From: an uncultured Ruminococcus sp.
GTDB taxonomy: Bacteria; Bacillota; Clostridia; Oscillospirales; Ruminococcaceae
Length of the DNA: 64,000 bases
Assembly (NCBI RefSeq): GCF_946415235.1
Contig: NZ_CAMKRR010000006.1
Location: forward strand, 1 to 64,000
Direction: 5' to 3'
Shown: positions 1,393 through 38,180 of the stretch, in pieces
How the letters are laid out: the number at the start of each line of letters is the position of its first letter
Numbering within the stretch: position 1 is the stretch's first letter
Notes under the pieces: model-generated
Seen by the model: the letters and a program-made list of their open reading frames with translations, nothing else
The model's database searches: none
Told to the model about the DNA's origin: nothing
Position numbers and translations under genes: made by a program

Positions 1393-3489
1393 TCAGACAT
1401 TGTAGATTATCTCGGAATATGCAGGTATCGGCCACTTGGCTGACGGCATATTGAGCTCTATCTCATCGGCAATGCTTCTCATTATATCCATTTCAGCAAG
1501 AACCACATCATGGAAGAACTCAGCCTGCTTCTGAATGCCCGAAACTGCATTCGCTTCTGTAACGCGGGCTTCAAGGCGCTCGATAGACTCGTAGAAGCGG
1601 TCTGAAAGCTCATTGAGCTTCTTTGCTATCTTTTCATCTGTGTTGCAGGTAAAGCCTATCTGCTTCTTTGTAGCTATAGCCTCGCAAAGGGACTGAACAT
1701 AATCCATTGCTGCGGGAAGGAGCTGCTTTCTTGCCATTTCTATCATGGTACGTGCCTCGATACGAACTGTCTTCGAGTACTTTTCAAGATGTATCTCTTT
1801 TCTTGCGGCTACCTCATTCTGATTGTATATCTCAAACTTGCGGAATATGCGTACATTCTTTTCGTCTGTGTAGTGCGGCATACAGTCAACTGTTGAAGCA
1901 TAGTTGGGAAGACCTCTTCTTTCTGCCTCCTTTACCCACTCCTCGGAATAGCCGTCACCGTTGAAGATGATCCTTCTGTGCTCCTTGATAACAGTCTTGA
2001 GAAGCTTTCTTACCTCGGCATCAAAGTTGTCCTTGCCCTTGAAAGGCTCAAGTATCTCGGTAAACTGACTGAGCTCCTCACACATGATGGCATTGAGCAG
2101 AACATTCGGGCAGGCAATATTATCGGAAGAGCCCACCATTCTGAACTCAAAACGGTTTCCTGTAAAAGCAAAAGGCGATGTCCTGTTTCTGTCGGTGGAA
2201 TCCTTGGGGAATGACGGCAGCGCATCAACACCGATCTTGAAAGCACGTGCCTTTGTCTTGTAGACAGCATCATCCTCGATAGCCTGCAAAACAGCTTCAA
2301 GCTCTTCGCCGAGGAACATCGAAACGATAGCAGGCGGAGCTTCATCAGCGCCAAGTCTGTGATCGTTGCCTGCGGAAGCGGCTGAAAGTCTCATAAGATC
2401 TGCATACTCGTCAACGCCCTTGATAAGAGCGCAGAGTATTGTAAGGAACTGGAGATTATCCATAGGAGTATCGCCGGGATCAAGAAGATTCTGACCGTCA
2501 TTCGTAGACATAGACCAGTTATTGTGCTTGCCCGAACCGTTAACGCCCTCAAAAGGCTTCTCGTGAAGCAGGCATACAAGACCGTGCTTAAGTGCGACCT
2601 TTTCCATTACCTCCATCGCAAGCTCGTTCTGATCCGTTCCGAGGTTGGATGTAGTGAATATAGGAGCCATTTCATGCTGTGCGGGAGCTACCTCGTTATG
2701 CTTTGTCTTTGAATAGATGCCCAGCTTCCAAAGCTCCTCGTCGAGATCTGCCATATATGCAGCGATCCTCGGACGGAGATTTGCAAAATACTGATCGTCC
2801 AGATCCTGACCCTTCGGAGGCTTTGCACCGAAAAGAGTTCTGCCTGTAAGGATAAGATCCTCACGCTGATCATACATTTTTTTATCTATAAGAAAATATT
2901 CCTGTTCAGCTCCAACTGTTGAAGTAACTCTTGTTACCCTGTCGTTTCCGAAAAGCTTGAGGAAACGAACAGCGGTCTTGCTGAGTGCCTGCATCGAACG
3001 TAAAAGAGGAGTCTTTTTATCAAGGACTTCTCCTGTATATGATACAAAGACCGTAGGGATATAAAGGCTTCCCTCTTTAACAAAGCAATAGGATGTCGGA
3101 TCCCATGCTGTATATCCCCTTGCGGAGCTTGTTCTTCTGAGGCCTCCCGAAGGGAAGGATGAAGCGTCAGGTTCACCCTTTACAAGAGCTTTGCCTGAAA
3201 ATTCCATGATAGCCATACCGTTTGGCGCGGGACTGATAAAACAGTCATGCTTTTCTGCTGTTGAACCGGTCATAGGCTGGAACCAGTGAGTATAATGGGT
3301 CGCGCCTCTTTCTATAGCCCATTCTTTAATAGTATTAGCTACAACATCAGCGGTCTCCATATCTGCTAAGGGCTCGTTGTTCTGCATAGTTCTCTTGAGA
3401 GCTCTGTAGACATTCTTCGGAAGTTTTGTCTTCATGACATCTTCATTGAACACATTGCAGGCAAAAATCTCGGGAATATTTACTGACAT
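1393..3489 (-). CDS. glnN: Glutamine synthetase type III
   Basis: A 698-residue protein, the normal length for GSIII (about 700, against about 450 for GSI). GSIII makes glutamine from glutamate, ammonia and ATP in the cytoplasm and is the main assimilatory enzyme in rumen Bacteroidetes and Ruminococcus. Family hallmarks include the N-terminal FAWNxF-like segment (FACNVFNEDVM), GGLRRTSSARGYTAWDPTS, AEQEYFL near residue 195, KHNEVAPAQHE near residue 266 and NGSGKHNNWS. The ATG at 3489 has GAGGAGG seven bases upstream. It stands alone, with its own promoter and a terminator on each side. No PII or amt gene is adjacent. Confidence 0.96.
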   Translation of the reverse strand: MSVNIPEIFACNVFNEDVMKTKLPKNVYRALKRTMQNNEPLADMETADVVANTIKEWAIERGATHYTHWFQPMTGSTAEKHDCFISPAPNGMAIMEFSGKALVKGEPDASSFPSGGLRRTSSARGYTAWDPTSYCFVKEGSLYIPTVFVSYTGEVLDKKTPLLRSMQALSKTAVRFLKLFGNDRVTRVTSTVGAEQEYFLIDKKMYDQREDLILTGRTLFGAKPPKGQDLDDQYFANLRPRIAAYMADLDEELWKLGIYSKTKHNEVAPAQHEMAPIFTTSNLGTDQNELAMEVMEKVALKHGLVCLLHEKPFEGVNGSGKHNNWSMSTNDGQNLLDPGDTPMDNLQFLTILCALIKGVDEYADLMRLSAASAGNDHRLGADEAPPAIVSMFLGEELEAVLQAIEDDAVYKTKARAFKIGVDALPSFPKDSTDRNRTSPFAFTGNRFEFRMVGSSDNIACPNVLLNAIMCEELSQFTEILEPFKGKDNFDAEVRKLLKTVIKEHRRIIFNGDGYSEEWVKEAERRGLPNYASTVDCMPHYTDEKNVRIFRKFEIYNQNEVAARKEIHLEKYSKTVRIEARTMIEMARKQLLPAAMDYVQSLCEAIATKKQIGFTCNTDEKIAKKLNELSDRFYESIERLEARVTEANAVSGIQKQAEFFHDVVLAEMDIMRSIADEIELNMPSAKWPIPAYSEIIYNV

Positions 3490-3547
3490 ATATTTTCCTC
3501 CTCAGAGCTTATAAGCTCATATATACAATACTCCATCATAATTCAAA

Positions 3548-16487: not shown

Positions 16488-16518
16488 AAATAAAAGCAGT
16501 TCATTCAGACTGCTTTTC
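16488..16518 (-). terminator. Terminator of the cobalamin-riboswitch operon
   Basis: AAAAGCAG / CTGCTTTT arms spanning the stop codon of the EamA gene, followed on the minus strand by TTTTATTTTTT. Confidence 0.65.
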
Positions 16519-17457
16519 AGAGAGATCATTCCCCTTTTCCGCAAAAGGTAAATTGACGATTATTATTCCTGCCGCTACAAGTATCAGTGCCGCAGATGTA
16601 CCGATAATTCCCGACGGACTTTTCTCCGAAAGTATAAGATAAGACAATATAACTCCGAAAACAGGGTTCATAAAACCGAATACCGAGACTGTCGATACAT
16701 TATTATACTTTATCAGCGTTCCCCATACGGAAAAAGCGACAGCAGATACGAGTGCAAGATATATTAGCATCAGTATACCCTCTATATTTACAACAATTAT
16801 CCTGCCGCCAAATAAAAATCCGACATTCGTCATGAAAGCTCCGCCGATAATGAACTGCCAGCCGCTGAGCATGACAGGGTCTTCATCACGGGAATAACGC
16901 TTTATAAGTGCAGACGAAAATGCATACGAAAGAGCTGAAAGAAATACAAAGCCTTCTCCTGTCAGTCTGAAACCGCCCCTCAGACCGCTTATATTCATAA
17001 GGATAATACCTGAAAATCCGACTATACAGCCGCATATTTTCCGCAAAGCGAGCTTTTCCGTCCTGAAAACAAGTGCTGCCACCATTATGGACAAAAATAC
17101 ATTTGACGCTGTTATAACAGAGCTTTTCATACCCGTGCTTCGGGACAGACCGATATAAAAGAAGGTATATTGCAGTATTGTCTGAAAAAGCGAAAGCTTC
17201 AAAGCCTTATGGACTGAACCGACTCTGATGATAAGCGGTCTGCGGGATATAAAGCTGCCGATAACAAGTGCAATTATACCTGCAAGTATAAACCGCAGTC
17301 CTGCATAGAATATCTGTGAAAATGTATCGTCAGCAGCAATATGCGAGAACCTGCATCCAAGCTTTATACACGGGAATGCGCTTCCCCACAGCAGACAGCA
17401 AAGCATTGCAAGCAGAAAGACTGCTGCTCTGTTTTTGAGTATTTCCTTAGTTTTCAT
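16501..17457 (-). CDS. EamA/DMT-family transporter
   Basis: 318 residues with ten predicted helices in two EamA repeats (about 15-145 and 165-300), the normal length for drug/metabolite transporters. LLWGSAFPCIKLG near the N-terminus and the second-half SVWGTLIKYNNVS are typical. I use ATG 17457 rather than the TTG at 17472, because AGGAG lies six bases before 17457. The gene overlaps the ABC ATPase gene by 11 bases and is last in the B12-riboswitch operon. Its substrate is unknown; from position it may move a corrinoid precursor, a metal ligand or a lower-ligand base. Confidence 0.88.
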   Translation of the reverse strand: MKTKEILKNRAAVFLLAMLCCLLWGSAFPCIKLGCRFSHIAADDTFSQIFYAGLRFILAGIIALVIGSFISRRPLIIRVGSVHKALKLSLFQTILQYTFFYIGLSRSTGMKSSVITASNVFLSIMVAALVFRTEKLALRKICGCIVGFSGIILMNISGLRGGFRLTGEGFVFLSALSYAFSSALIKRYSRDEDPVMLSGWQFIIGGAFMTNVGFLFGGRIIVVNIEGILMLIYLALVSAVAFSVWGTLIKYNNVSTVSVFGFMNPVFGVILSYLILSEKSPSGIIGTSAALILVAAGIIIVNLPFAEKGNDLSEKQSE

Positions 17458-18562
17458 TGAAAGCTCCTTCAATAAGCTTACCTTCTCTTTTAGCTTTGTT
17501 CAAAAGCTCCTGACACAGCCTGTTCATTTCTCCGAATTTTTCGGCAGCACATATGACCGTATCACAGGAATCCATAAGTTTTAGCGCTTTTTTATAATTC
17601 TCGTCGGATACGGGTTCAAAAGCCTTTTCGGAGATCAATTCCGCTGCAAGTGCAGAAGCAGCAGGATATTCTATATCATTTTCATGTATTACACCTGCCG
17701 CAAAAGGTATTCTGAGCCTTCTGAGCTTGCGGTAAACAGCTATGCCGCTTCCTCCGCCGCCAATGACAAATACTTTGGGTGCGCCGTGGAGCTTCAATAG
17801 TTCGGGAGTACCGTAATACGCGCACAGGCTTCCTTTTTTAATGCCGTACAGCTCCTCGATATAACCGCCTGTGAATATTTCCTCGGGAGTTCCGAATCTG
17901 TCGGGGCGCTCCCCTTTTATGCACAGTATCTTATCTGAAACGCGCTGAGCAAGGTCAAGTTCATGGAGTGACATTATTATGGCAGTATTGTTTTCGTGAG
18001 CAAGCTTTTTCAGTATATCCATAAGCTCAAGCTTGTACTTTATATCGAGAAACGTCGCAGGCTCATCAAGTATCAGTATCTTAGGCTCACGGCAGACAGC
18101 TCCTGCAATGAGCACTCTCTGCCGCTGACCGTCGCTCACTCTGTCAAAATCACAGTCCGCTATACTTTCTGTATCCGTCTTCTTAATGGCTTCATCGACT
18201 TTCTTCTTATCATCAGCGGACAATACTCCGAGCCTGCCTGTATAGGGATATCTTCCCATTTCCACGACATCTCTGCACCGCATATATTCTGTTCTTACCC
18301 TGCCTGTGAGAAGAACGGCAGCAGACCTTGCAAGCTCGTTCCCGCTGAGCTCCTCCAGTTTGTTTTCTCCGATATATACGGCTCCGCCGAGAGGGGCGAG
18401 CTGTCGGCAAAGAGTTTTAAGTATCGTTGATTTTCCTGCGCCGTTAGGCCCGATCAGCGTTAGTATCTTTCCGCACTCCGCCGTTATCTCAATGCCGCTT
18501 ATAACAAGCTTTTTCCCGTAGCCTACCGAAAGATCATGCGTACTAAGTCCTATTTCAGCCAT
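17447..18562 (-). CDS. FecE/BtuD-type ABC ATPase with a C-terminal Rossmann-like extension
   Basis: 371 residues, about 110 longer than a plain BtuD. Residues 1-250 form the ATPase: Walker A GPNGAGKST, signature VSDGQRQRV (SDGQ instead of SGGQ), Walker B ILILDEPATFLD and switch His SLHELD. From about 262 a second domain starts with KVFVIGGGGSGIAVYRKL, a glycine-rich dinucleotide-binding pattern, and ends in an alpha-helical tail with MDSCDTVICA. Related extended ATPases occur in clostridial iron or cobalamin operons, but the extension has no assigned role known to me. It overlaps the permease gene by eight bases. The protein should energise the FecCD permease encoded upstream. Confidence 0.9.
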   Translation of the reverse strand: MAEIGLSTHDLSVGYGKKLVISGIEITAECGKILTLIGPNGAGKSTILKTLCRQLAPLGGAVYIGENKLEELSGNELARSAAVLLTGRVRTEYMRCRDVVEMGRYPYTGRLGVLSADDKKKVDEAIKKTDTESIADCDFDRVSDGQRQRVLIAGAVCREPKILILDEPATFLDIKYKLELMDILKKLAHENNTAIIMSLHELDLAQRVSDKILCIKGERPDRFGTPEEIFTGGYIEELYGIKKGSLCAYYGTPELLKLHGAPKVFVIGGGGSGIAVYRKLRRLRIPFAAGVIHENDIEYPAASALAAELISEKAFEPVSDENYKKALKLMDSCDTVICAAEKFGEMNRLCQELLNKAKREGKLIEGAFNEN

Positions 18563-19577
18563 TTTCCTTCCACCTCTCTCTGTTCAGGAGCATATATATG
18601 ACCACAGGTGCGCCGAAAACAGATGTGACCGTACTTATACTGAGCTCCGCAGGTGCAAATAAAGTTCTTGTTATGAGGTCGCAGAACAGACAGAAAACCG
18701 CTCCGCCAAGAAAACTTGCAGGTATTATAAAAACAGGTCTGGCAGTCCTGAAAATGCTTTTTATAAGGTGAGGAACAGCTACTCCGACGAAGGAAACAGG
18801 TCCTGCAAAAGCTGTAACGCAAGCCGAAAGCAGACTTGAAAGAAGTATCAGTGATATTCTGAACGCTCTGATATGTACTCCCGAATTGCGGGCGTATTCT
18901 TCACCGAGCTGATATGCGCTCATGGGCTTTGAAAGCATGAATGCAAAAATACATACGGGAACGGTTATGCAGGCAGAGGTCATAACTTCCGGGCTGCCTA
19001 TACCCGAAAAGCTTCCCATTGACCAGTTGTGGAGATTAACTATATTGGAATCATCGGAAAAATTCACAACAAGGTCTGTCACAGCCGAGCAGATATAGCC
19101 TATCATAACTCCGCAGACGATAAGTACGGACATACGCCTCACCCTTGCGGAAATAAGGAGTATGATCCCCATGGAAAGGAGCGAGCCCGCAAATGCCGCC
19201 AAGACCATTTCAGCAGAATTGGCTGCAAATCCGTGTGAAAGCGATATCACCATAAGCAAAGCTACCGACAGCTTTGCTCCCGAGGATATGCCGAGTATAT
19301 ACGGACCAGCGATGGGATTTGCAAAGAAGTTTTGCAGAAGGAATCCTGCCACCGCAAGCGCTCCGCCAAGTATCGAAGCCGCCGCAGTACGCGGTATACG
19401 CAGTCCCGTTATGATATTATAGGCTATTTTGTCATTTTCGGGGAAACGCAGAGCAGACCACAATCTCCGGAGCGATATATCGGCGCTTCCGATGCATATA
19501 TTCAGAATAATGAGCACAATAAGAAGAACTGCCAGTACAAGATAGCTTATCACAATACGTTGACGCCGTGTATCCAT
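18555..19577 (-). CDS. FecCD/BtuC-family ABC permease
   Basis: 340 residues with about ten helices, the standard BtuC size. FANPIAGPYILGISSGAKL near residue 87 and FVGVAVPHLIKSIFR near residue 265 are the conserved FecCD segments. The family imports ferric siderophores, haem or cobalamin across the membrane. The start overlaps the binding-protein stop as TAATG, and the ATPase gene follows with an eight-base overlap. The riboswitch upstream points to cobalamin or a corrinoid as substrate. Haem or cobalt chelates remain possible. Confidence 0.93.
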   Translation of the reverse strand: MDTRRQRIVISYLVLAVLLIVLIILNICIGSADISLRRLWSALRFPENDKIAYNIITGLRIPRTAAASILGGALAVAGFLLQNFFANPIAGPYILGISSGAKLSVALLMVISLSHGFAANSAEMVLAAFAGSLLSMGIILLISARVRRMSVLIVCGVMIGYICSAVTDLVVNFSDDSNIVNLHNWSMGSFSGIGSPEVMTSACITVPVCIFAFMLSKPMSAYQLGEEYARNSGVHIRAFRISLILLSSLLSACVTAFAGPVSFVGVAVPHLIKSIFRTARPVFIIPASFLGGAVFCLFCDLITRTLFAPAELSISTVTSVFGAPVVIYMLLNRERWKENG

Positions 19578-20689
19578 TACTGCTCCTCCAGACGATACAA
19601 ATAAGTCATTTTATCCTCAGCTTCACCGACAAAAATGCTGTGAAGCTCCTTTATCATATCAGCAGCACCTGTGGTCTGCTGAAACATATTCTTTTCAGTA
19701 CACCATACATCGCCAGTTTTTACTGCCTTGAACTCACTGAGCATAGGATATTTTTCCATAAGCTCGTTCAGGGAGGCTATCTCCCCAAGGATCGTGCTGT
19801 TGTATATAAGGATATCCGCATCCCACGCTTTTTCGCAGAATACTTCGGGCTGGACCGTCATGGTCGACAACGCGTTTTCATCCGTACCAAGATCATTGCT
19901 GTCAAATATGTACTCTCCGCCTGCCATTCTCATCATTTCGGGAACATAATCATTAGGCTTTCGTATGACAACTCCGCCTGAGGAGTTGATGTAAAAGAAA
20001 GCAGCCTTTTTATCTGTCTTTTCAGATGAAAGTATCTCTTCTATCTGCGATATCTTACTGTTGAAAAGCTCGTTTGCCCTTTCCTCGCAGCCGAAAAGTA
20101 TACCGTAAAGCTTTATCCACTCCATTCGTCCGAGAGGATCCGTTTCATAGCTTGAACGCTCCACAAGAACAGGTATTCCCAGTTCTTCAAGCTTTTCCTT
20201 GACCTCGGGACTGTGATATATCATTGTGGATTCTATAGCAAGGGAGCAGTCAGCCTCCATAAGCGCCTCATAATCGGGAGCACTGTACTTGCCGACGTAA
20301 TACATTTCACCCTTGTCTATAGCCTCTTTAACAGACGGCAGCGCCCAGTCATCGTATTTTGTTGATGTCATCATGACACTGCCGAGAGCTCCTGCTCCGT
20401 CTATGAGGTCCATAGCCGAGGAAGCGGCGTTATATACATTTTCAACAGGCTGTCTGATAACAGCCGAGCCGCCGGTATCCGAGGGTATTGCAGCATTTTC
20501 GGGAACTACTGTATAGCGGTCTGCGCCTATAGTAACGGAAATACAGCCGTTATCAAGATATTCCGCCGAAAATTCCTTTGCATACCTGAGTTCGAGCTTG
20601 TTAAGGGCAGTATTATCATCTTTTTCAGCGTTCAGCCTTGTACAGCCGCATAAAAACAATACGGCAAAAGTATATATCAGCCTTTTCAT
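19577..20689 (-). CDS. Substrate-binding lipoprotein of the FecB/BtuF family
   Basis: 370 residues. The signal peptide ends in the lipobox LCGC, with the acylated Cys at residue 16. The mature part is a class III binding protein, with two lobes joined by a helix. ALMEADCSLAIESTMIYHSPEVKEKL is the family's first-lobe pattern, and the second lobe has TVQPEVFCEKAWDADILIYN. No metal-binding His cluster is visible, which fits a corrinoid or chelate rather than a bare metal. It follows the two-repeat lipoprotein gene with a single-base gap and is coupled to the permease gene. Confidence 0.88.
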   Translation of the reverse strand: MKRLIYTFAVLFLCGCTRLNAEKDDNTALNKLELRYAKEFSAEYLDNGCISVTIGADRYTVVPENAAIPSDTGGSAVIRQPVENVYNAASSAMDLIDGAGALGSVMMTSTKYDDWALPSVKEAIDKGEMYYVGKYSAPDYEALMEADCSLAIESTMIYHSPEVKEKLEELGIPVLVERSSYETDPLGRMEWIKLYGILFGCEERANELFNSKISQIEEILSSEKTDKKAAFFYINSSGGVVIRKPNDYVPEMMRMAGGEYIFDSNDLGTDENALSTMTVQPEVFCEKAWDADILIYNSTILGEIASLNELMEKYPMLSEFKAVKTGDVWCTEKNMFQQTTGAADMIKELHSIFVGEAEDKMTYLYRLEEQ

Positions 20690-20690
20690 T

Positions 20691-21596
20691 TCACTTGTTC
20701 ACGGAAGCAGAGTCAAAGAAAAGCGTATACTCTATCTCGTGGGGAGTGCTCATAGCAGTCGTATCAGCCGAAATTTTCATTTTATAGTCAAAGCCCTCAA
20801 CAGGTATCTCAAATACAGAGAACTCATCAGTGCTGACAGGCATGATCTTGTCGCCGCCGACTACCATATAATCATATTTGTTGCTGCTCCATACTATTTC
20901 AGCAAAAGCCTTTCCGTCCTTTATGGTAAGCTTTGCAGGTGACTGCACCGACGCCTTGCCCGACCCCCCTTCCAGCTTTACATCTACCATGTATTCACCG
21001 TCTTCAAGTGAAAGGGAGTCAACAGTTACGAACATATCCTCTGAAAAAGCTTCCTTGGGGAGCGAATCTGCACGAAATACCAGCTTTCTTCCATACCACT
21101 GCTCCTTGCGCCTGCTGAACGCGGCGCAGTCGATCTCCTTGTCAAGAGCTTCCACAGGAACAGTAAATGATACAACATCATCTGCCGTTTCAGCAGCTAT
21201 TCTGTCGCTTTCGACAGCTTTTCCCGCTTCTTCCTCAGTACCCATGTAAAGATATTCGTAGCCGCTGCCGCTCATTGTCATTTTCGCCGTCATTTTTCCG
21301 TCTGCAACGACGAGCTTGCAGGCAGTTATCTTAAACATTGACGAGCTTGAATCAACTTTTATGTCATATTCTCCAGATTTAACTGAATCGGCATATACTG
21401 CTTCCATGCCCTCAAAGCCTACTTCAATCTGAGCAGCTGTTACTTTCTCGGCAGTTGTTTCGGTTGTTGGTTCACTTGCTGTTGTCTGCGGAGCTGTTGT
21501 GGTTTTGATCTCGGCAGTATAATCTGAATTGTCCGAGCATGAACCGAACAGAGAAGTAATAAGAATTGCGGCTGATAATATAGCAACTTTTTTCAT
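20691..21596 (-). CDS. Two-repeat surface lipoprotein, possibly NEAT-like
   Basis: 301 residues. The lipobox SLFGSCS places the acylated Cys at about 20, followed by a Thr/Ser/Ala-rich linker (about 25-50). Two similar modules of about 110-120 residues follow. In each, Y-x-V-D/K-V strands and a K-x-x-AEIVW/KMTM strand precede an aromatic YEYLYMG or YDYMVVG turn, then FTVPVEALD or FEIPVEGFD, and finally an F-x-x-DS end. The strand order and the FxxPV-x-x-LD segment recall NEAT (iron-transport-associated) domains, which bind haem; the classic SLxxxY haem helix is not obvious. It may pass a tetrapyrrole from the surface to the binding protein. Confidence 0.7.
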   Translation of the reverse strand: MKKVAILSAAILITSLFGSCSDNSDYTAEIKTTTAPQTTASEPTTETTAEKVTAAQIEVGFEGMEAVYADSVKSGEYDIKVDSSSSMFKITACKLVVADGKMTAKMTMSGSGYEYLYMGTEEEAGKAVESDRIAAETADDVVSFTVPVEALDKEIDCAAFSRRKEQWYGRKLVFRADSLPKEAFSEDMFVTVDSLSLEDGEYMVDVKLEGGSGKASVQSPAKLTIKDGKAFAEIVWSSNKYDYMVVGGDKIMPVSTDEFSVFEIPVEGFDYKMKISADTTAMSTPHEIEYTLFFDSASVNK

Positions 21597-21616
21597 AATA
21601 TCACCTTTTACAAAAT

Positions 21617-21637
21617 CAGCCGACGCATGGTCGGCTG
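21617..21637. terminator. Intercistronic hairpin between cbiK and the two-repeat lipoprotein gene
   Basis: CAGCCGAC / GTCGGCTG arms. On the minus strand it is followed by ATTTTGT, a weak T-run, so it may reduce rather than stop transcription or stabilise the upstream message. The better T-tract is on the plus strand. Confidence 0.45.
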
Positions 21638-21644
21638 TATTTTT

Positions 21645-22682
21645 TTACTTTAATGAATCTATAGCTTTCTGAGTATGCTCAGTATAAAGTGTTCTGATAT
21701 CCTCATTCTCACCAAGGCCTCTGAGCAGACATTTTACTTCAAAGCCTTCAGCTTCAAATGCAGACTTCCACGAATACTCATCATCGCCTGCCATATCGTT
21801 ATTTGCATGATCTCCGGCAACTACCATGAGAGGTTCAAGAACCACCTTCTTGTAGCCGCCCTCTTTTACCTTTGCAAGTACATCTTCAAGAGAAGGCTCG
21901 GCTTCAACCGTGCCTACATAATAATTCTTGAAGCCGTCATTTGTAAGAAGATCCTGCATTTTCTGATATACAGCATTTGAGTCAGCCCCTGTACCATGTC
22001 CCATGAAGCAGATCGCTGTTTCGCCGTCGTCATATTCCTTTGTCCAGTCGGTGATAGCTGTTTCAACTCTCTTGAAGTCATCATCGCTTGTAAGGAGAGG
22101 CTCACCGATAACTACCTTTTCAAAGGCATCGGAGTAATTAGCGACCTTGCTTGTGATCTCCTCATATTCGATACCGTTCATAAGGTGAGTAGGCTGAACT
22201 ACAAGATTCTTTACATTGTTGTCAACAGCTCTTTTGAGAGCAGCGTCGATATCGTCGATAAGGATACCGTCACGCTTGTTTACATGGTCGATAACAATAT
22301 TTGCTGTAAATCCTCTGCGAACGGCATAATCGGGGAAAGCCTTCTCAACAGCATCTTCGATAGCACCTATCGTAAGTCTGCGGCTGTCGTTAAAGCTTGT
22401 TCCGAAGCTGACAACAAGTATCTCGTTATCGCCTATCTCATCCTGATTGCGGATATTATCAAGAGAAGCATCTCCTGTATCGTAATTTTCCTCATCATCT
22501 TCTTCCTCTGCCTCAGTCGTAGTCTCAGCTTCGGTAGTGATCTCCTCTGTAGTAGTTGCCTCGGCTGTTGTTGCTTCGGTAGCCTTTTCGGAAGAAGTGT
22601 CCTTCTTTTCATTTCCGCACGAGTAAGCGCAGGCTGTCAGAGCAAGAGCGGAAACAGCTGCAACGATCCTTTTCATATTCAT
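21645..22682 (-). CDS. cbiK: Exported sirohydrochlorin cobaltochelatase (CbiK-type) lipoprotein
   Basis: 345 residues. Residues 1-22 are a signal peptide ending ACAYSCG, giving a lipobox-like site with Cys at about 22. A linker rich in Thr and Glu (about 30-70) leads to the chelatase domain at about 80-345. ILVVSFGTSFNDSRRLTIGAIE is the CbiK N-terminal pattern, with metal-binding His in QPTHLMNGIEYE, CFMGHGT and VAGDHANND. CbiK inserts cobalt into sirohydrochlorin in the anaerobic B12 pathway and is normally cytoplasmic. An exported form is known from Desulfovibrio (CbiKP). First gene after the cobalamin riboswitch; AGGAGG lies nine bases before the start. Whether it acts as a chelatase or a tetrapyrrole/cobalt binder outside the cell is open. 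Confidence 0.88.
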   Translation of the reverse strand: MNMKRIVAAVSALALTACAYSCGNEKKDTSSEKATEATTAEATTTEEITTEAETTTEAEEEDDEENYDTGDASLDNIRNQDEIGDNEILVVSFGTSFNDSRRLTIGAIEDAVEKAFPDYAVRRGFTANIVIDHVNKRDGILIDDIDAALKRAVDNNVKNLVVQPTHLMNGIEYEEITSKVANYSDAFEKVVIGEPLLTSDDDFKRVETAITDWTKEYDDGETAICFMGHGTGADSNAVYQKMQDLLTNDGFKNYYVGTVEAEPSLEDVLAKVKEGGYKKVVLEPLMVVAGDHANNDMAGDDEYSWKSAFEAEGFEVKCLLRGLGENEDIRTLYTEHTQKAIDSLK

Positions 22683-22723
22683 TTTCTATTCCTCCTGTCT
22701 TTCGGAGACATCATATCGTGCAC

Positions 22724-22755
22724 AAAAAACACCTTCCGCAAAGCTTGAGGAAGGC
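22724..22755 (-). terminator. Riboswitch expression-platform terminator
   Basis: Minus strand: GCCTTCC, an 11-base loop, GGAAGG, then TGTTTTTTG. It lies between the cobalamin aptamer and cbiK, as expected for transcription termination when B12 is bound. Confidence 0.8.
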
Positions 22756-22809
22756 ATGACAAAAAAGCCCGTATAGAGCTATGGTACGATCAATGCCTCG
22801 TGATCTGAG

Positions 22810-22975
22810 CTTACGCTCTGTACCGATAAACGGCAGGTTTCCTGACTCACGGATAATAACGCAGCATCACGCCTTCCCGATATTCTCAGTGGCTGCATTG
22901 AATGCACGGATACCGCTCTCCGCTTACAGTGACGAGATCGTGCAGGACTTTCACCCGCTTCCCTTTTACCTTTCA
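22810..22975 (-). promoter_or_regulatory. Cobalamin riboswitch
   Basis: Read on the minus strand, the canonical elements appear in order: GAAGCGGGTGAAAGTCCTGC, a CACTGTAAGCGG segment, GCCACTG, GGGAAGGCGTGATG and the B12 box AGTCAGGAAACCTGCC. The last ends near 22831 and pairs back across the aptamer. This is the classic adenosylcobalamin-type architecture. A terminator hairpin follows before cbiK. The six genes downstream (cbiK to the EamA gene) are therefore predicted to be turned off when cobalamin is plentiful. Confidence 0.95.
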
Positions 22976-23040
22976 TCTGTATATACAGAAGAAAGCACCG
23001 CTTACCTTATTTAATTATGTTATTCATGAATACATGGAAT

Positions 23041-23068
23041 ATTATAGCACAGATTTCCGAAAATTCAA
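23041..23068 (-). promoter_or_regulatory. Promoter of the cobalamin-riboswitch operon
   Basis: Minus strand: TTGAAT, 16-base spacer, TGC-TATAAT. The predicted start near 23034 leaves about 60 bases before the aptamer. Confidence 0.7.
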
Positions 23069-23202
23069 ATAGTCAGGCATAAAATCGGAGAATTTTACAA
23101 ATTAGCATTTACAAATGAGGACAAATATGTATATTCGCTTTAACAAACGTAAAATTGATACGATATGTAACAGTAAAAGCACTTTATTGCACTCTCCTCA
23201 CA

Positions 23203-23231
23203 TTGACACAATGCACAAAAAGAGGTATAAT
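23203..23231 (+). promoter_or_regulatory. Promoter of the GH43 gene
   Basis: TTGACA, 17-base spacer, TATAAT, a full consensus match. It lies inside the longest possible reading frame and thereby shows that translation must start downstream, at 23265. Confidence 0.85.
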
Positions 23232-23264
23232 AATATCAACAATGTTCTACAGGAGGTCATAAAA

Positions 23265-26012
23265 ATGAATTTCAAAAAGCTTATCTCAGCTGCCCTCTCA
23301 TGCTGTCTTATGCTTTCGGCGTTCAGCAGTGCAAATATATCCGCCGCAGGCTCACGGGTATCCGTACACGATCCCTCTATCGTAAAGGCAGACGGAAAAT
23401 ACTACGTTTTCGGTTCTCATATCGAAGCGGCAAGCTCCTCTGACCTGATAAACTGGAGAAGCTTCGCTAACGGCTATGCTAAAACCAATAATGTTGAGTT
23501 CGGAAATCTCTCTCAGAATCTGAAAAAAGCCTTCGACTGGGCAGGCGAAGACCTTGAGGACTGTGCAGGCGGATTTGCCGTATGGGCGCCCGATGTGGTA
23601 TGGGACGGTGATTTTGTCAACAGTGACGGCAGCAAAGGCGCTTATCTTATGTATTTCTGCACTTCCTCTACTTATATGCGCTCAGTTATCGCATATGCTG
23701 CCTCAAAGAGCATCGGAGGACCTTATACATTCGTCGATACACTTATTTACTCCGGCTTCACAAACAACGACAGCTATGCGAAAAGCAGTACCAAAAACGT
23801 CAACCGAAAATATACTTCGACCAATATCGACGAGCTTATAGCGGAAGGAAAAGTATCTTTCAACAGCAGCTGGTTCAGGAACGATAACTTCAATAATCAG
23901 CTCTACCCCAATGCTATTGATCCTACTATATATTTCGATACCGACGGTAAGATGTATATGTGCTACGGTTCATGGTCGGGCGGTATCTTCTCGCTTGAGA
24001 TAGATAAGCAGACAGGTCAGTGTATCCATCCGCGCACAGGTCAGACCTCTGACGGAAGAATTGTCGACAGCTATTTCGGCACAAAGATATCGGGCGGCTA
24101 CGGAAAATCAGGTGAAGGTCCGTTCATAGAATACAACGCCGACACGGGATACTATTACCTGTGGGTGACTTACGGAGGACTTACCTCGTCAGGCGGTTAT
24201 AATATGCGTGTTTTCAGATCGCTGTCTCCTCTCGGTCCATTCACCGATCCCGCAGGACGTCAGGCTGTACTTCCGACTGATCCAAATCTTGACTCAGTCG
24301 GTCTTAAGGTCATGGGAAATTATAAATTCAGTTCGCTTAGCAAAGCATATATGGCCTGCGGTCACAACTCCGTTCTGCGTGACGATGACGGTAAATGGTA
24401 TCTGATATACCACACCCGCTTTGACGACGGCGCTGAATATCACGAGGTCCGCGTACATTCGATGTACTTCAATGAAAAGGGCTGGCCAGTGGTCGCTCCT
24501 TACGAATATTCGGGCGATACGCTTTCCGATAGCGGTTACAGCGAGGAGGATATAGTCGGAGAATATGAATTCATCAATCACGGCAGTTCGACCGACGGAA
24601 AGATAATCAATTACAGTACAATAAAGCTCGGCTCCGACGGAAGTATCAGCGGAAACGCTTCGGGAAAATGGATGCAGTCCAAGGGCAGCGCAGCTGCTGA
24701 GATAACTGTCGGCGGTCAGCTTTATTCGGGATATTTCCTTGCAGCAAAGGATGAAAACGGAAAAAAAGTAATGTCATTTACCGCTGTCGGCAGCAATAAT
24801 CAGACGATTTGGGGCGTACAGACCAAAAGCTTTACAGGTTCCGAACGCACAGGGATAGCTGATTTTACGGAGAAGAATTCTCAGCTTATAAATAAAGCGG
24901 AAACGGTTTCGGGTACGGGAAACGCTCTTAAGCTCAGCGGTACGGAGCTTCTCAGTGGTATATCATACTTCATAATAAACCAGAACAGCGGTATGGCTGT
25001 AGATATCCCCAACGGCAAGCTTGAAGAAGGAACAAATATACAGCAGTGGGAACGCAACGGAAGCTGGGCTCAGCAATGGCGTATTATCTCCGTGGAAAAA
25101 GATTACTGCCGAATAGTATCATCAGGTGATGAGACAATGTGCATCGCTGTTGCAGAAAGCTCTGCCGACGACGGTATCAATATCGAGCTCCAAAAATATA
25201 CGGGGAAGGACAATCAGTTGTTCAGGCTGAAAAAGTGCGGCTCTGACTACGGTATAGTCTCGAAATGCTCAAACGACACAGGCGGACTTGACGTTTATGA
25301 ATGGTCTAAGGAAAACGGCGGCAATATCAATCAGTGGAACTACTGGGAAGGTGGCTGTCAGCTCTGGAGCTTATCCCCTGTTCACCCGACTGTTACCGAC
25401 GGATGCTATATGGCACGCAGTGTAAACAGCGGACTTTATTTGTGCGATATGGACGGCAGGGCTGTACAGTCCGATATGAACAGCCTTGCTTTTGAATACG
25501 ATCCCACAGGCGCTCCGCCTCCGTACAATATCAACGATCAGATATGGACTTTCAATAAGGATACAGACGGAAGCTATTTTATAAAAAATCAGAAGGGTCA
25601 GGCTCTGACAGCCGACAATGATGATCTGACTATCAGGGAATTCAGCGGTTCAGATGAACAGAAATTCAATATAATATGCAATAAGGACGGTTCGTATTCT
25701 TTTATGAAGTCGGGGAAATACATTGACAACGGAAAGAGCGAAAAATTTAAAGCGGCATTTGGCCTTACCAATCTGTCGGAAGAAAACAGCAATAAATTCG
25801 TTCTGGAGCCGTCTGTCCCCGAAGGGATAGTTCTTCCCATTATCGGCGACGTCAATGACGACGGCGAGATAAATACTTCCGACCTTGTAATGCTGCAAAA
25901 GTACCTTCTCAAGTCCGGTGAACTTAAAAAGTCATACATGGCAGATGTAAACAAGGACGGAACAGTTGATATATTTGACAGCGTAGCCCTAAGAAAGCTT
26001 CTGATTAAATAA
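23265..26012 (+). CDS. GH43 arabinanase-type glycoside hydrolase with RICIN domain and dockerin
   Basis: 915 residues, secreted. Signal peptide 1-28, then the GH43 five-bladed propeller to about 360. HDPSIVK gives the catalytic base Asp36, NAIDPTIYF the pKa-tuning Asp, and SGEGPFIEY the acid Glu. A beta-barrel extension typical of endo-1,5-arabinanases follows (about 420-535). A ricin-type trefoil of about 565-700 shows the QxW motifs IQQWERNGSWAQQWRI and INQWNYWEGGCQLWSL; a second, weaker trefoil-like part follows. The type I dockerin at about 850-915 has two calcium loops, DVNDDGEINTSD and DVNKDGTVDIFD. The product should join a cellulosome-like complex and cut pectin side chains. AGGAGG lies eight bases before ATG 23265. 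Confidence 0.9.
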   Translation: MNFKKLISAALSCCLMLSAFSSANISAAGSRVSVHDPSIVKADGKYYVFGSHIEAASSSDLINWRSFANGYAKTNNVEFGNLSQNLKKAFDWAGEDLEDCAGGFAVWAPDVVWDGDFVNSDGSKGAYLMYFCTSSTYMRSVIAYAASKSIGGPYTFVDTLIYSGFTNNDSYAKSSTKNVNRKYTSTNIDELIAEGKVSFNSSWFRNDNFNNQLYPNAIDPTIYFDTDGKMYMCYGSWSGGIFSLEIDKQTGQCIHPRTGQTSDGRIVDSYFGTKISGGYGKSGEGPFIEYNADTGYYYLWVTYGGLTSSGGYNMRVFRSLSPLGPFTDPAGRQAVLPTDPNLDSVGLKVMGNYKFSSLSKAYMACGHNSVLRDDDGKWYLIYHTRFDDGAEYHEVRVHSMYFNEKGWPVVAPYEYSGDTLSDSGYSEEDIVGEYEFINHGSSTDGKIINYSTIKLGSDGSISGNASGKWMQSKGSAAAEITVGGQLYSGYFLAAKDENGKKVMSFTAVGSNNQTIWGVQTKSFTGSERTGIADFTEKNSQLINKAETVSGTGNALKLSGTELLSGISYFIINQNSGMAVDIPNGKLEEGTNIQQWERNGSWAQQWRIISVEKDYCRIVSSGDETMCIAVAESSADDGINIELQKYTGKDNQLFRLKKCGSDYGIVSKCSNDTGGLDVYEWSKENGGNINQWNYWEGGCQLWSLSPVHPTVTDGCYMARSVNSGLYLCDMDGRAVQSDMNSLAFEYDPTGAPPPYNINDQIWTFNKDTDGSYFIKNQKGQALTADNDDLTIREFSGSDEQKFNIICNKDGSYSFMKSGKYIDNGKSEKFKAAFGLTNLSEENSNKFVLEPSVPEGIVLPIIGDVNDDGEINTSDLVMLQKYLLKSGELKKSYMADVNKDGTVDIFDSVALRKLLIK

Positions 26013-37970: not shown

Positions 37971-38168
37971 AGAAAAGAAAAAGCAAAATTTCTGCCTTGT
38001 GCGAGTAATTATAGTTTTTATAATCCAACACATAATTCAAGGGAATTCGTCTCCGTATGTGGACTGCAGACCTCCCGCCCTGCGGAAGAAGGGAGCGAGA
38101 AGCATAAGGGCGTTTACCCACCTGCTTAGTGCGGGTTTTATGCACTATATGACGGCAAGGCGGATTTT
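37971..38168 (+). ncRNA. ssrS: 6S RNA candidate
   Basis: A stretch of about 200 bases with no gene, its own promoter and a closing stem TCTGCCTTG (37990-37998) / CAAGGCGGA (38155-38163) followed by TTTTTATA. The inside forms a long interrupted rod: GCCCTGCGGAAGAAGGGAGC near the middle and AAGGGCGTTTACCCACCTGC after it. Size, rod shape and the late GGGCGTTTACCCACCT element agree with what I remember of Firmicute 6S RNA, which mimics an open promoter and holds sigma-70 polymerase in stationary phase. The name is from pattern memory and not from a covariance search. Confidence 0.62.
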
Positions 38169-38180
38169 TATACTCAACGA

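Follow-up and report, generated by a model that had tools for sequence, protein, structure and literature searches.

Why should a bacterium display outside its membrane an enzyme of vitamin B12 synthesis that normally works in the cytoplasm? The question is raised by an operon in a 64,000-nucleotide stretch of DNA from an uncultured Ruminococcus sp. (RefSeq assembly GCF_946415235.1, contig NZ_CAMKRR010000006.1, positions 1 to 64,000), referred to below, at its full length, as the window. Read on the minus strand from 23017 to 16501, the operon consists of a cobalamin riboswitch followed by the genes for the chelatase CbiK, a lipoprotein with NEAT domains, a substrate-binding lipoprotein, a permease, an ATPase and an EamA-family transporter, and the products of all six genes exceed Pfam cut-offs. 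Cytoplasmic location, the rule for CbiK, does not hold for the window protein as judged from its predicted lipoprotein signal. We regard it as probable, if well short of certain, that the operon salvages an early B12 precursor: sirohydrochlorin would receive cobalt outside the cell, be relayed by the NEAT lipoprotein and enter through a dedicated importer. This proposal builds on the gene content and its conservation, on gene fusions, on the intact catalytic residues of CbiK, and on a genome in which the corrin pathway is present from CbiL onward and HemB, HemC, SUMT and a second CbiK or CbiX were not found.

The exported chelatase and its neighbours across genomes

The cbiK gene (21645..22682, minus strand) encodes a CbiK-type (sirohydrochlorin) cobaltochelatase composed of a lipoprotein signal, an acidic linker and a catalytic domain (21660-22421), and scores 278.6 bits with PF06180 (cut-off 26.2). 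Its score with the NCBIfam equivalog NF047852 is 230.1 bits, below the cut-off of 400, so that the NCBI name is not earned under that rule. The closest solved chains are, in this order, Salmonella enterica CbiK, Porphyromonas gingivalis FetB (which we take to be one protein with IhtB, discussed below) and the Desulfovibrio vulgaris chelatase (2xvx). Glu172, His229 and His292 of the window protein correspond to Glu89 (presumably a catalytic residue), His145 and His207 of S. enterica CbiK and are invariant in 24/24 aligned exported CbiKs. The two histidines form the catalytic pair of the S. enterica enzyme (PMC7689651), and they are described together with a complex of CbiK with metallated sirohydrochlorin (PMC4063343).

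We followed CbiK through two samples. The family sample, part of a larger group, comprised 197 genomes from the family to which the window belongs, and CbiK matched in 70 of them. With 11 genomes set aside because their matches were all partial or weak, 60 regions around CbiK were taken up, and gene order was examined in 58 loci, the window included; neighbouring genes were in part named by reading and in part checked against models. The named-genome set consisted of the best 80 loci of a longer list and, being made up of best matches, leans towards the clade of the window protein. It includes Ruminococcus flavefaciens Y1 and ND2009, Ruminococcus sp. YE71, Evtepia gabavorous, Fusobacterium naviforme ATCC 25832 and Lachnoclostridium sp. 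An14, the rest being mostly metagenome-assembled genomes.

In 22 of the 58 family loci an exported CbiK is adjoined by one or two NEAT genes; in two further loci the exported CbiK has a FecCD importer beside it and no NEAT gene, two encode a CbiK with a membrane-type N-terminus, and in 32 CbiK has no signal. The order of the genes varies and the set stays together; in L038, for instance, the importer genes precede the others and each NEAT domain is a protein of its own with a transmembrane anchor. Taking a FecCD permease no more than 6 kb from cbiK as the mark of an importer, we found one in 20/22 exported loci with NEAT and in 2/2 without. Among the named genomes, 66 of the 80 loci were scorable (at least 4.3 kb downstream, genes assigned by a position rule), and 59 of these 66 hold CbiK together with NEAT, binding protein, permease and ATPase. 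The seven that fail the rule are L136, L161, L172, L194, L200, L206 and L207; in L200 and L207 the NEAT gene is present and starts beyond the limit of the rule. The co-occurrence of an exported CbiK with this importer, which the initial annotation had put forward as a check, is thus borne out (22/24 exported family loci for the permease, 59/66 named loci for the full set). A cobalamin riboswitch accompanies 20 of the 22 family NEAT loci (none was found in L074 and L075) and nine of ten named loci scanned, L186 being the exception. Upstream of the exported cbiK of genome G126, two such riboswitches lie back to back and face outward (L014:2885-3138, minus strand, and 3325-3520, plus strand), and two adjacent Clostridiales-1 sRNAs lie near the F. 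naviforme ATCC 25832 cassette (L173:12930-13267, minus strand).

The signal itself is kept as well. All 24 aligned exported CbiKs have cysteine in the lipobox column, and a rule-based lipobox was recognized in 69 of the 80 named loci. Among the other 11, L141 is truncated by the end of its contig, L195 was apparently missed by the rule, and nine (L172, L176, L178, L196, L197, L198, L205, L207 and L208) have, by eye, signal peptides that lack the cysteine. Judging by these predicted N-termini, CbiK is exported throughout the clade; the type of anchor varies and export is constant. Fusions point the same way. CbiK-NEAT-NEAT proteins occur in 4/80 named loci (L186, L190, L192, L201) and NEAT-NEAT-binding protein fusions in 6/80 (L173, L174, L177, L178, L182, L187). 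When three fusions were searched with Pfam, its models recognized the binding protein of L173 and the CbiK part of L186 and L201; the NEAT model matched weakly in L186 (19.9 versus 32.8 bits) and not at all in L173 and L201, so the NEAT halves rest on a custom profile. The claim that this CbiK bears a lipoprotein signal and lies outside the cell is therefore upheld by a signal kept across the clade and by the CbiK-NEAT fusions, as far as predicted signals can tell.

Two further features of the exported proteins deserve mention. Many carry, at the junction of acidic linker and catalytic domain, a tag of the rough form EENYxTGDASxDxxRNxDxIGxxEL (about residues 66-88 in the window protein, 22419-22487); nothing like it occurs in the cytosolic CbiKs compared, whose N-termini start near the catalytic domain. 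One exported protein (L206:5984-7849) has two CbiK catalytic domains in tandem, both scoring strongly.

A corrin pathway from CbiL onward

In the window genome (assembly 96% complete), a single block on contig C4 encodes CbiL, CbiD, CbiF, CbiG, CbiH, CbiJ, CbiE/T, CbiA, CobT, CobU, CobS, CobC, CbiB, CobD, CbiP and CbiC. For CbiG, CobU, CobS, CobC, CobD and CbiC the scores lie under the NCBIfam equivalog cut-offs and the names follow the ranking of the models; CbiC also exceeds its Pfam cut-off. The genome has five tetrapyrrole (TP) methylases, namely CbiL, CbiF, CbiH, CbiE and one on contig C7 that is presumably RsmI. We found in it no HemB, no HemC match and no SUMT over the cut-off (HemA, HemL and HemD were not searched for), and no second CbiK or separate CbiX beyond the exported CbiK (CobN was not searched for). 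A search for CbiX-type chelatases in 26 genomes yielded no separate one; its 21 matches were the genomes' own exported CbiK (membrane-type in G006).

The product expected of CbiK, cobalt-sirohydrochlorin, is the substrate that CbiL methylates. The internal pathway thus starts at CbiL, at the very point that the outside enzyme would reach, and this makes an exported chelatase meaningful rather than refuted. The initial annotation, made with no view of the genome context (corrin genes present, early genes not found), had named a complete cytoplasmic cbi pathway using this CbiK as a finding that would count against its idea. A cytoplasmic pathway does exist, yet its first enzyme is the one that follows the chelatase; neither HemB, HemC and SUMT nor a further CbiK or CbiX was found. 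Our own initial reading, that of a stand-alone B12 importer serving an auxotroph, was overturned by the CbiC search. With corrin and loop genes present and the three tested early genes not found, the window genome instead has the pattern of a tetrapyrrole precursor salvager. Shelton et al. (2019) described such bacteria, mainly Firmicutes, as having corrin and loop genes without the first steps and verified the use of 5-aminolevulinic acid (ALA) in three species; the accessible part of that study names neither an uptake machine at the level of the ring nor an outside chelatase (PMC6461909).

The same pattern prevails among the 22 family genomes with a NEAT cassette. CbiC is present in 21 (the exception is G080), a single CbiK likewise in 21, and HemB, HemC and SUMT were all not found in 17, including G170 and G130, whose assemblies are 79% and 84% complete. 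G012 yielded no HemB or SUMT, and of HemC just a fragment at the end of a contig. The two genomes with an exported CbiK and no NEAT gene, G185 and G067, yielded none of the three. By comparison, the genomes of the 32 cytosolic-CbiK loci hold HemB, HemC and SUMT in 20 cases, SUMT only in five and none of the three in seven. Of the 80 named carriers, 50, hand-picked before the results were seen and mostly on longer contigs, were tested for HemB and CbiC: HemB was found in 12 and CbiC in 48, and CbiC is present in 37 of the 38 carriers in which HemB was not found. The laboratory isolates R. flavefaciens Y1 and ND2009 both show this pattern of CbiC with no HemB found. Among nine control genomes of the family without a CbiK match, CbiC was found in one, G011. 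This genome has CbiC and SUMT and no match to HemB, HemC or CbiK, that is, a corrin pathway without a known chelatase in the searches made.

The presence of an importer beside cbiK goes, in counts, with the absence of the early genes. Next to a cytosolic cbiK, a FecCD permease was found in 5/7 loci whose genomes yielded none of HemB, HemC and SUMT, in 0/5 with SUMT only and in 0/20 with all three; membrane-type loci gave 0/2, which brings the non-exported loci outside the early-gene-less cytosolic group to 0/27. (The loci scored as having no importer include L084 and L073, with 3.5 kb and 8.3 kb of contig.) With kinship ignored, the association between an importer beside CbiK and the absence of SUMT gives a Fisher p of 3e-8.

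The cytosolic loci with an adjoining FecCD importer in genomes where HemB, HemC and SUMT were not found include L063/L216 (G048), L066/L217 (G051), L077 (G088) and L085 (G084), the last genome being also without a CbiC match. Locus L214 (830-8211) of G002, again a genome in which none of the three was found, encodes a cytosolic CbiK, a binding protein, FecCD, ABC, a CobN-type chelatase and AAA subunits, followed by cbiD-F-G-H-J-E-A, and is possibly a parallel variant of salvage. The five cases of cytosolic CbiK with importer are the most informative ones and look like a second route to the same trade, in which import comes first and the metal is inserted inside.

NEAT domains, importer and operon layout

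The gene next to cbiK (20691..21596, minus strand) encodes a lipoprotein for which two surface-exposed repeats had been noted. The repeats prove to be two NEAT domains, an identity that the initial annotation had not recognized: N1 at about 21039-21401 and N2 at about 20703-21011. PF05031 gives 35.1 bits (cut-off 32.8), the two halves resemble each other (hhalign E 3.5e-13), and in a Foldseek search with the predicted structure (46-sequence alignment, pLDDT 86.5) ranks 1-19 were all NEAT structures, IsdB, IsdH, IsdX1, Hbp2 and IsdC among them. Single-domain NEAT matches at E <=0.001 reached a target TM score of 0.64-0.68; the tandem NEAT structures of IsdB and IsdH reached 0.23-0.27, which means that the tandem arrangement of the domains is unmatched.

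Because a sequence search of N1 and N2 against solved chains gave nothing significant, the residue register of the NEAT domains rests on the model and on the N1-N2 alignment. In this register the S/YxxxY motif of haem-binding NEAT domains does not appear in N1, which has KxxxY in 46/46 sequences; N2 has HxxxY in 37/46 and YxxxY in 9/46, and the second tyrosine is kept in all. The residues at the ligand position of the window protein are Lys164 in N1 and His286 in N2. In the model the last strand of N2 begins with His286 and Lys164 stands two residues ahead of the last strand of N1, so we consider the predicted register firmer for N2 and are less sure of it for N1. The hairpin between strands 7 and 8 of N1 is basic (mean net charge +3.3) within a domain that is acidic overall, while the corresponding hairpin of N2 is not (-2.9). 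A basic hairpin would suit a ring with eight carboxylates. The roles of YxxxY in haem NEAT domains are documented (PMC4143258, PMC7815599); clostridial NEAT domains generally lack this motif (PMC4143258), and haem binding has been reported for NEAT proteins of Clostridium perfringens (PMC5026354). The missing motif thus cannot exclude haem as a ligand.

All Pfam components of a BtuFCD-type importer, Peripla_BP_2, FecCD and ABC_tran, are encoded downstream. The substrate-binding lipoprotein of the BtuF/IsdE class (19577..20689, minus strand; Peripla_BP_2, 106.3 versus 27.5 bits) has no solved-chain match by phmmer at E 0.001 and matches the IsdE model weakly (24.6 bits versus a cut-off of 298.65). 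The BtuC-like FecCD-type permease (18555..19577, minus strand; Pfam 260.2 bits) fits PRK03784 BtuC best, with 212.5 bits under a cut-off of 334. The BtuD-like ATPase (17447..18562, minus strand; Pfam ABC_tran) scores 210.8 bits with PRK09536, the model of a corrinoid ABC ATPase, under a cut-off of 537. Neither permease nor ATPase therefore reaches the BtuFCD equivalog cut-offs. At its C-terminus the ATPase has an additional domain (about 17450-17791) that is predicted to be Rossmann-like, with a GGGGSG motif and pLDDT 92.2; its model matched no PDB structure at E <=0.001, the best E being 2.2e-3. The extra domain and the importer are both there as the initial annotation had stated, but the domain also occurs outside this system: the PRK09536 match covers residues 6-351 of 371 and the model includes the domain. 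A role like that of precorrin-2 dehydrogenase was considered for it and dropped, siroheme synthase appearing only at rank 44 with E 0.028, which is no evidence.

The riboswitch aptamer (RF00174; 22815..23017, minus strand) scores 100.4 bits against a gathering threshold of 31.5 over the full model (1-189), and no further RF00174 match was found in the window genome. Directly 5' of it lies a promoter-like site, TTGAAT-16-TATAAT with TG (23041..23068, minus strand), a consensus match of a kind that occurs 16 times in the region versus 11.7 expected. In the gap between aptamer and cbiK a terminator-like hairpin of five pairs with a T run (22766..22780, minus strand; likewise a consensus match, eight sites versus 5.1 expected) is possibly the expression platform. 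Another terminator-like consensus match separates cbiK from the NEAT gene, and because of it a single transcript for the whole operon, as had been assumed, is likely but not proven; the riboswitch in front is secure.

The final gene encodes an EamA-family transporter (16501..17472, minus strand; Pfam). By phmmer it was found in 0/60 other family loci; among the named-genome loci it occurs in 3/80, all R. flavefaciens-like. The hairpin 3' of this gene (16492..16517, minus strand), a terminator-like consensus match of nine pairs followed by ATTTTTT, suggests that EamA may belong to the same transcript. The transporter is thus present in the operon as described, and its membership appears confined to the R. 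flavefaciens group. Elsewhere in the window, a divergent gene at 23115-26012 encodes a cellulosome-type protein with GH43, GH43_C, a ricin-type lectin and a dockerin, and a 6S RNA lies at 37986-38170 on the plus strand.

Proposed precursor salvage and its alternatives

How would such an operon work? Neighbouring microbes would release sirohydrochlorin (factor II), most likely the ring that is taken up. On shortage of cobamides the riboswitch, presumably closed by B12, would permit expression of the operon. Lipid-anchored CbiK would bind the scavenged ring outside the membrane and insert Co(II), and the tandem NEAT lipoprotein would capture the ring, relay cobalt-sirohydrochlorin to the binding lipoprotein, or do both. 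The FecCD/ABC importer would then bring cobalt-sirohydrochlorin into the cell, where CbiL could use it without further change and the resident cbi/cob operon, CbiL to CobS, would complete the cobamide.

Desulfovibrio vulgaris is said to have an additional, cytoplasmic CbiK, and we know of no NEAT gene or importer linked to its periplasmic one. A CbiK outside the cytoplasm is nevertheless shared with this species, whose enzyme has been named a periplasmic cobaltochelatase (PMC4063343). The closest known system is Iht of P. gingivalis, in which, as in the cassette, a CbiK-like lipoprotein, IhtB, is exported and accompanied by an importer, IhtCDE (PMC10913741). The window operon contains the same set of exported CbiK, binding protein, permease and ATPase. 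Iht has been read as a haem-iron uptake system with a TonB-dependent receptor, IhtA; NEAT domains and a cobalamin riboswitch, both present in the cassette, are not mentioned for it in the accessible part of that source (PMC10913741). No TonB-dependent receptor is among the genes of the window operon, the remaining genome not having been searched. The steps leading to precorrin-2 are missing from P. gingivalis (Roper 2000, cited in PMC6461909), and putting this together with its exported CbiK and importer we suggest, by analogy, that Iht may serve the same salvage purpose as a Gram-negative counterpart of the cassette. The outside relay resembles that of the Gram-positive Isd system, where NEAT proteins pass a tetrapyrrole to the IsdE/IsdF binding lipoprotein and importer (PMC7815599), but the cassette differs in having a riboswitch and a chelatase, in its lipoprotein or transmembrane anchors where Isd has sortase anchors, and in the absence of YxxxY from N1 and the prevalence of HxxxY in N2.

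The initial annotation had regarded the whole as a salvage machine not yet described as a unit. Iht qualifies this, since it already pairs an exported CbiK with an importer (PMC10913741). In a literature search that left most subscription journals and all preprints out of reach, we found nothing that joins CbiK with a NEAT domain or a NEAT domain with a cobalamin riboswitch, nor any statement that Iht serves ring salvage; the accessible part of PMC13227078 says nothing about cobalt insertion outside the cell.

A more detailed version of precursor salvage, which we offer tentatively and with rather more doubt than belief, divides the labour between the NEAT domains. Gut Clostridia would live on leaked sirohydrochlorin; N1, with its invariant KxxxY and basic hairpin, would receive the metal-free ring with its eight carboxylates, CbiK would add cobalt, and N2, mostly HxxxY, would take the cobalt form through its histidine before import to CbiL. 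Iht would then perform this trade in a Gram-negative cell and would not be a stripper of haem.

Several facts weigh against precursor salvage. The strongest are that four cassette genomes (G157, G118, G019 and G005) keep HemB, HemC and SUMT, yet no other CbiK or CbiX was found in them. In such keepers of the early genes the exported CbiK would either be an extra or, as the only CbiK/CbiX, have to serve a ring made in the cytoplasm, and for the second case we have no explanation. HemB is likewise retained by 12 of the 50 named carriers, G012 has a second, cytosolic CbiK, and the NEAT loci of G035 and G181 have no FecCD permease nearby. Nor is the riboswitch peculiar to exported CbiK, since 2/11 cytosolic and 1/2 membrane-type loci scanned carry one. 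On the CbiK tree the exported proteins form a single clade (97/88), and an independent-pairs test there gives no significance to the coupling of importer and SUMT loss, with or without L087, the second CbiK of G012. We therefore do not count the association, strong as it is in counts, as many independent events.

That corrinoid models are the best ones for permease and ATPase is, moreover, what would be expected of a B12 importer. Together with the cobalamin riboswitch and with B12-binding-domain proteins in 22/22 cassette genomes, it makes a case for plain corrinoid uptake, in which a BtuFCD-like importer takes in cobalamin or cobinamide while NEAT domains and a retired or merely binding CbiK hold the corrinoid at the surface, an alternative already raised in the initial annotation. 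We judge this, the main rival, unlikely, if worth keeping in mind. The genome keeps a corrin-ring pathway from CbiL, most of whose genes would be useless if late corrinoids alone were imported, and the catalytic residues of CbiK are all kept although cobalamin already contains cobalt; the distribution of importers beside non-exported CbiK (5/7 early-gene-less loci against 0/27 others) also speaks against it. Acquisition of haem or iron in the manner of Isd or Iht, with NEAT domains binding haem, CbiK acting backwards as a dechelatase and import of iron or haem, would account for a NEAT fold nearest to haem-bound NEAT structures, for the haem-binding FetB as second-best solved match of CbiK and for the weak IsdE match of the binding protein, and IhtB is thought to strip iron from haem (PMC10913741). 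It is very unlikely given the cobalamin riboswitch in 20/22 cassettes and CbiC in 21/22 cassette genomes; the Lys of N1 and the predominant His of N2 at the ligand position also speak against it, a weak argument as clostridial NEAT domains generally lack YxxxY.

Could the external CbiK, then, take the metal out of siroheme or a different metallated ring, or simply hold the ring, with cobalt inserted after import? Exported CbiK does adjoin ring-binding domains, the Salmonella enzyme accepts both cobalt and iron (PMC4063343), and the early-gene-less genomes with cytosolic CbiK and importer seem to take the ring in before metal is inserted. However, 21 of the 22 cassette genomes, all but G012, yielded no other CbiK or CbiX that could act inside, and no demonstration of the reverse reaction for the CbiK family appeared in the accessible parts of the literature consulted, so we hold this to be highly improbable. 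The view that exported CbiK is a cobalt-binding lipoprotein within a cobalt uptake device can appeal to the conserved metal-binding histidine pair and to the fact that riboswitches commonly control cobalt importers. It is scarcely credible in view of the CbiK-NEAT fusions, and FecCD/Peripla_BP_2 importers carry large chelates while NEAT domains bind tetrapyrroles. Among the activities that had been suggested for CbiK, loading of cobalt is thus favoured, binding of corrinoids before import comes second, and removal of metal has no positive evidence.

If precursor salvage is correct, it would explain where bacteria without the first half of tetrapyrrole synthesis but with a corrin pathway obtain their ring, something not yet settled either for precursor salvagers or for P. 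gingivalis. Sirohydrochlorin would be a traded metabolite in gut and rumen, the NEAT fold would gain a non-haem ligand, and a metal-insertion step of B12 synthesis would have moved outside the cell. Predictions from genomes would be affected too, as they may class these species among B12 producers or simple importers of B12.

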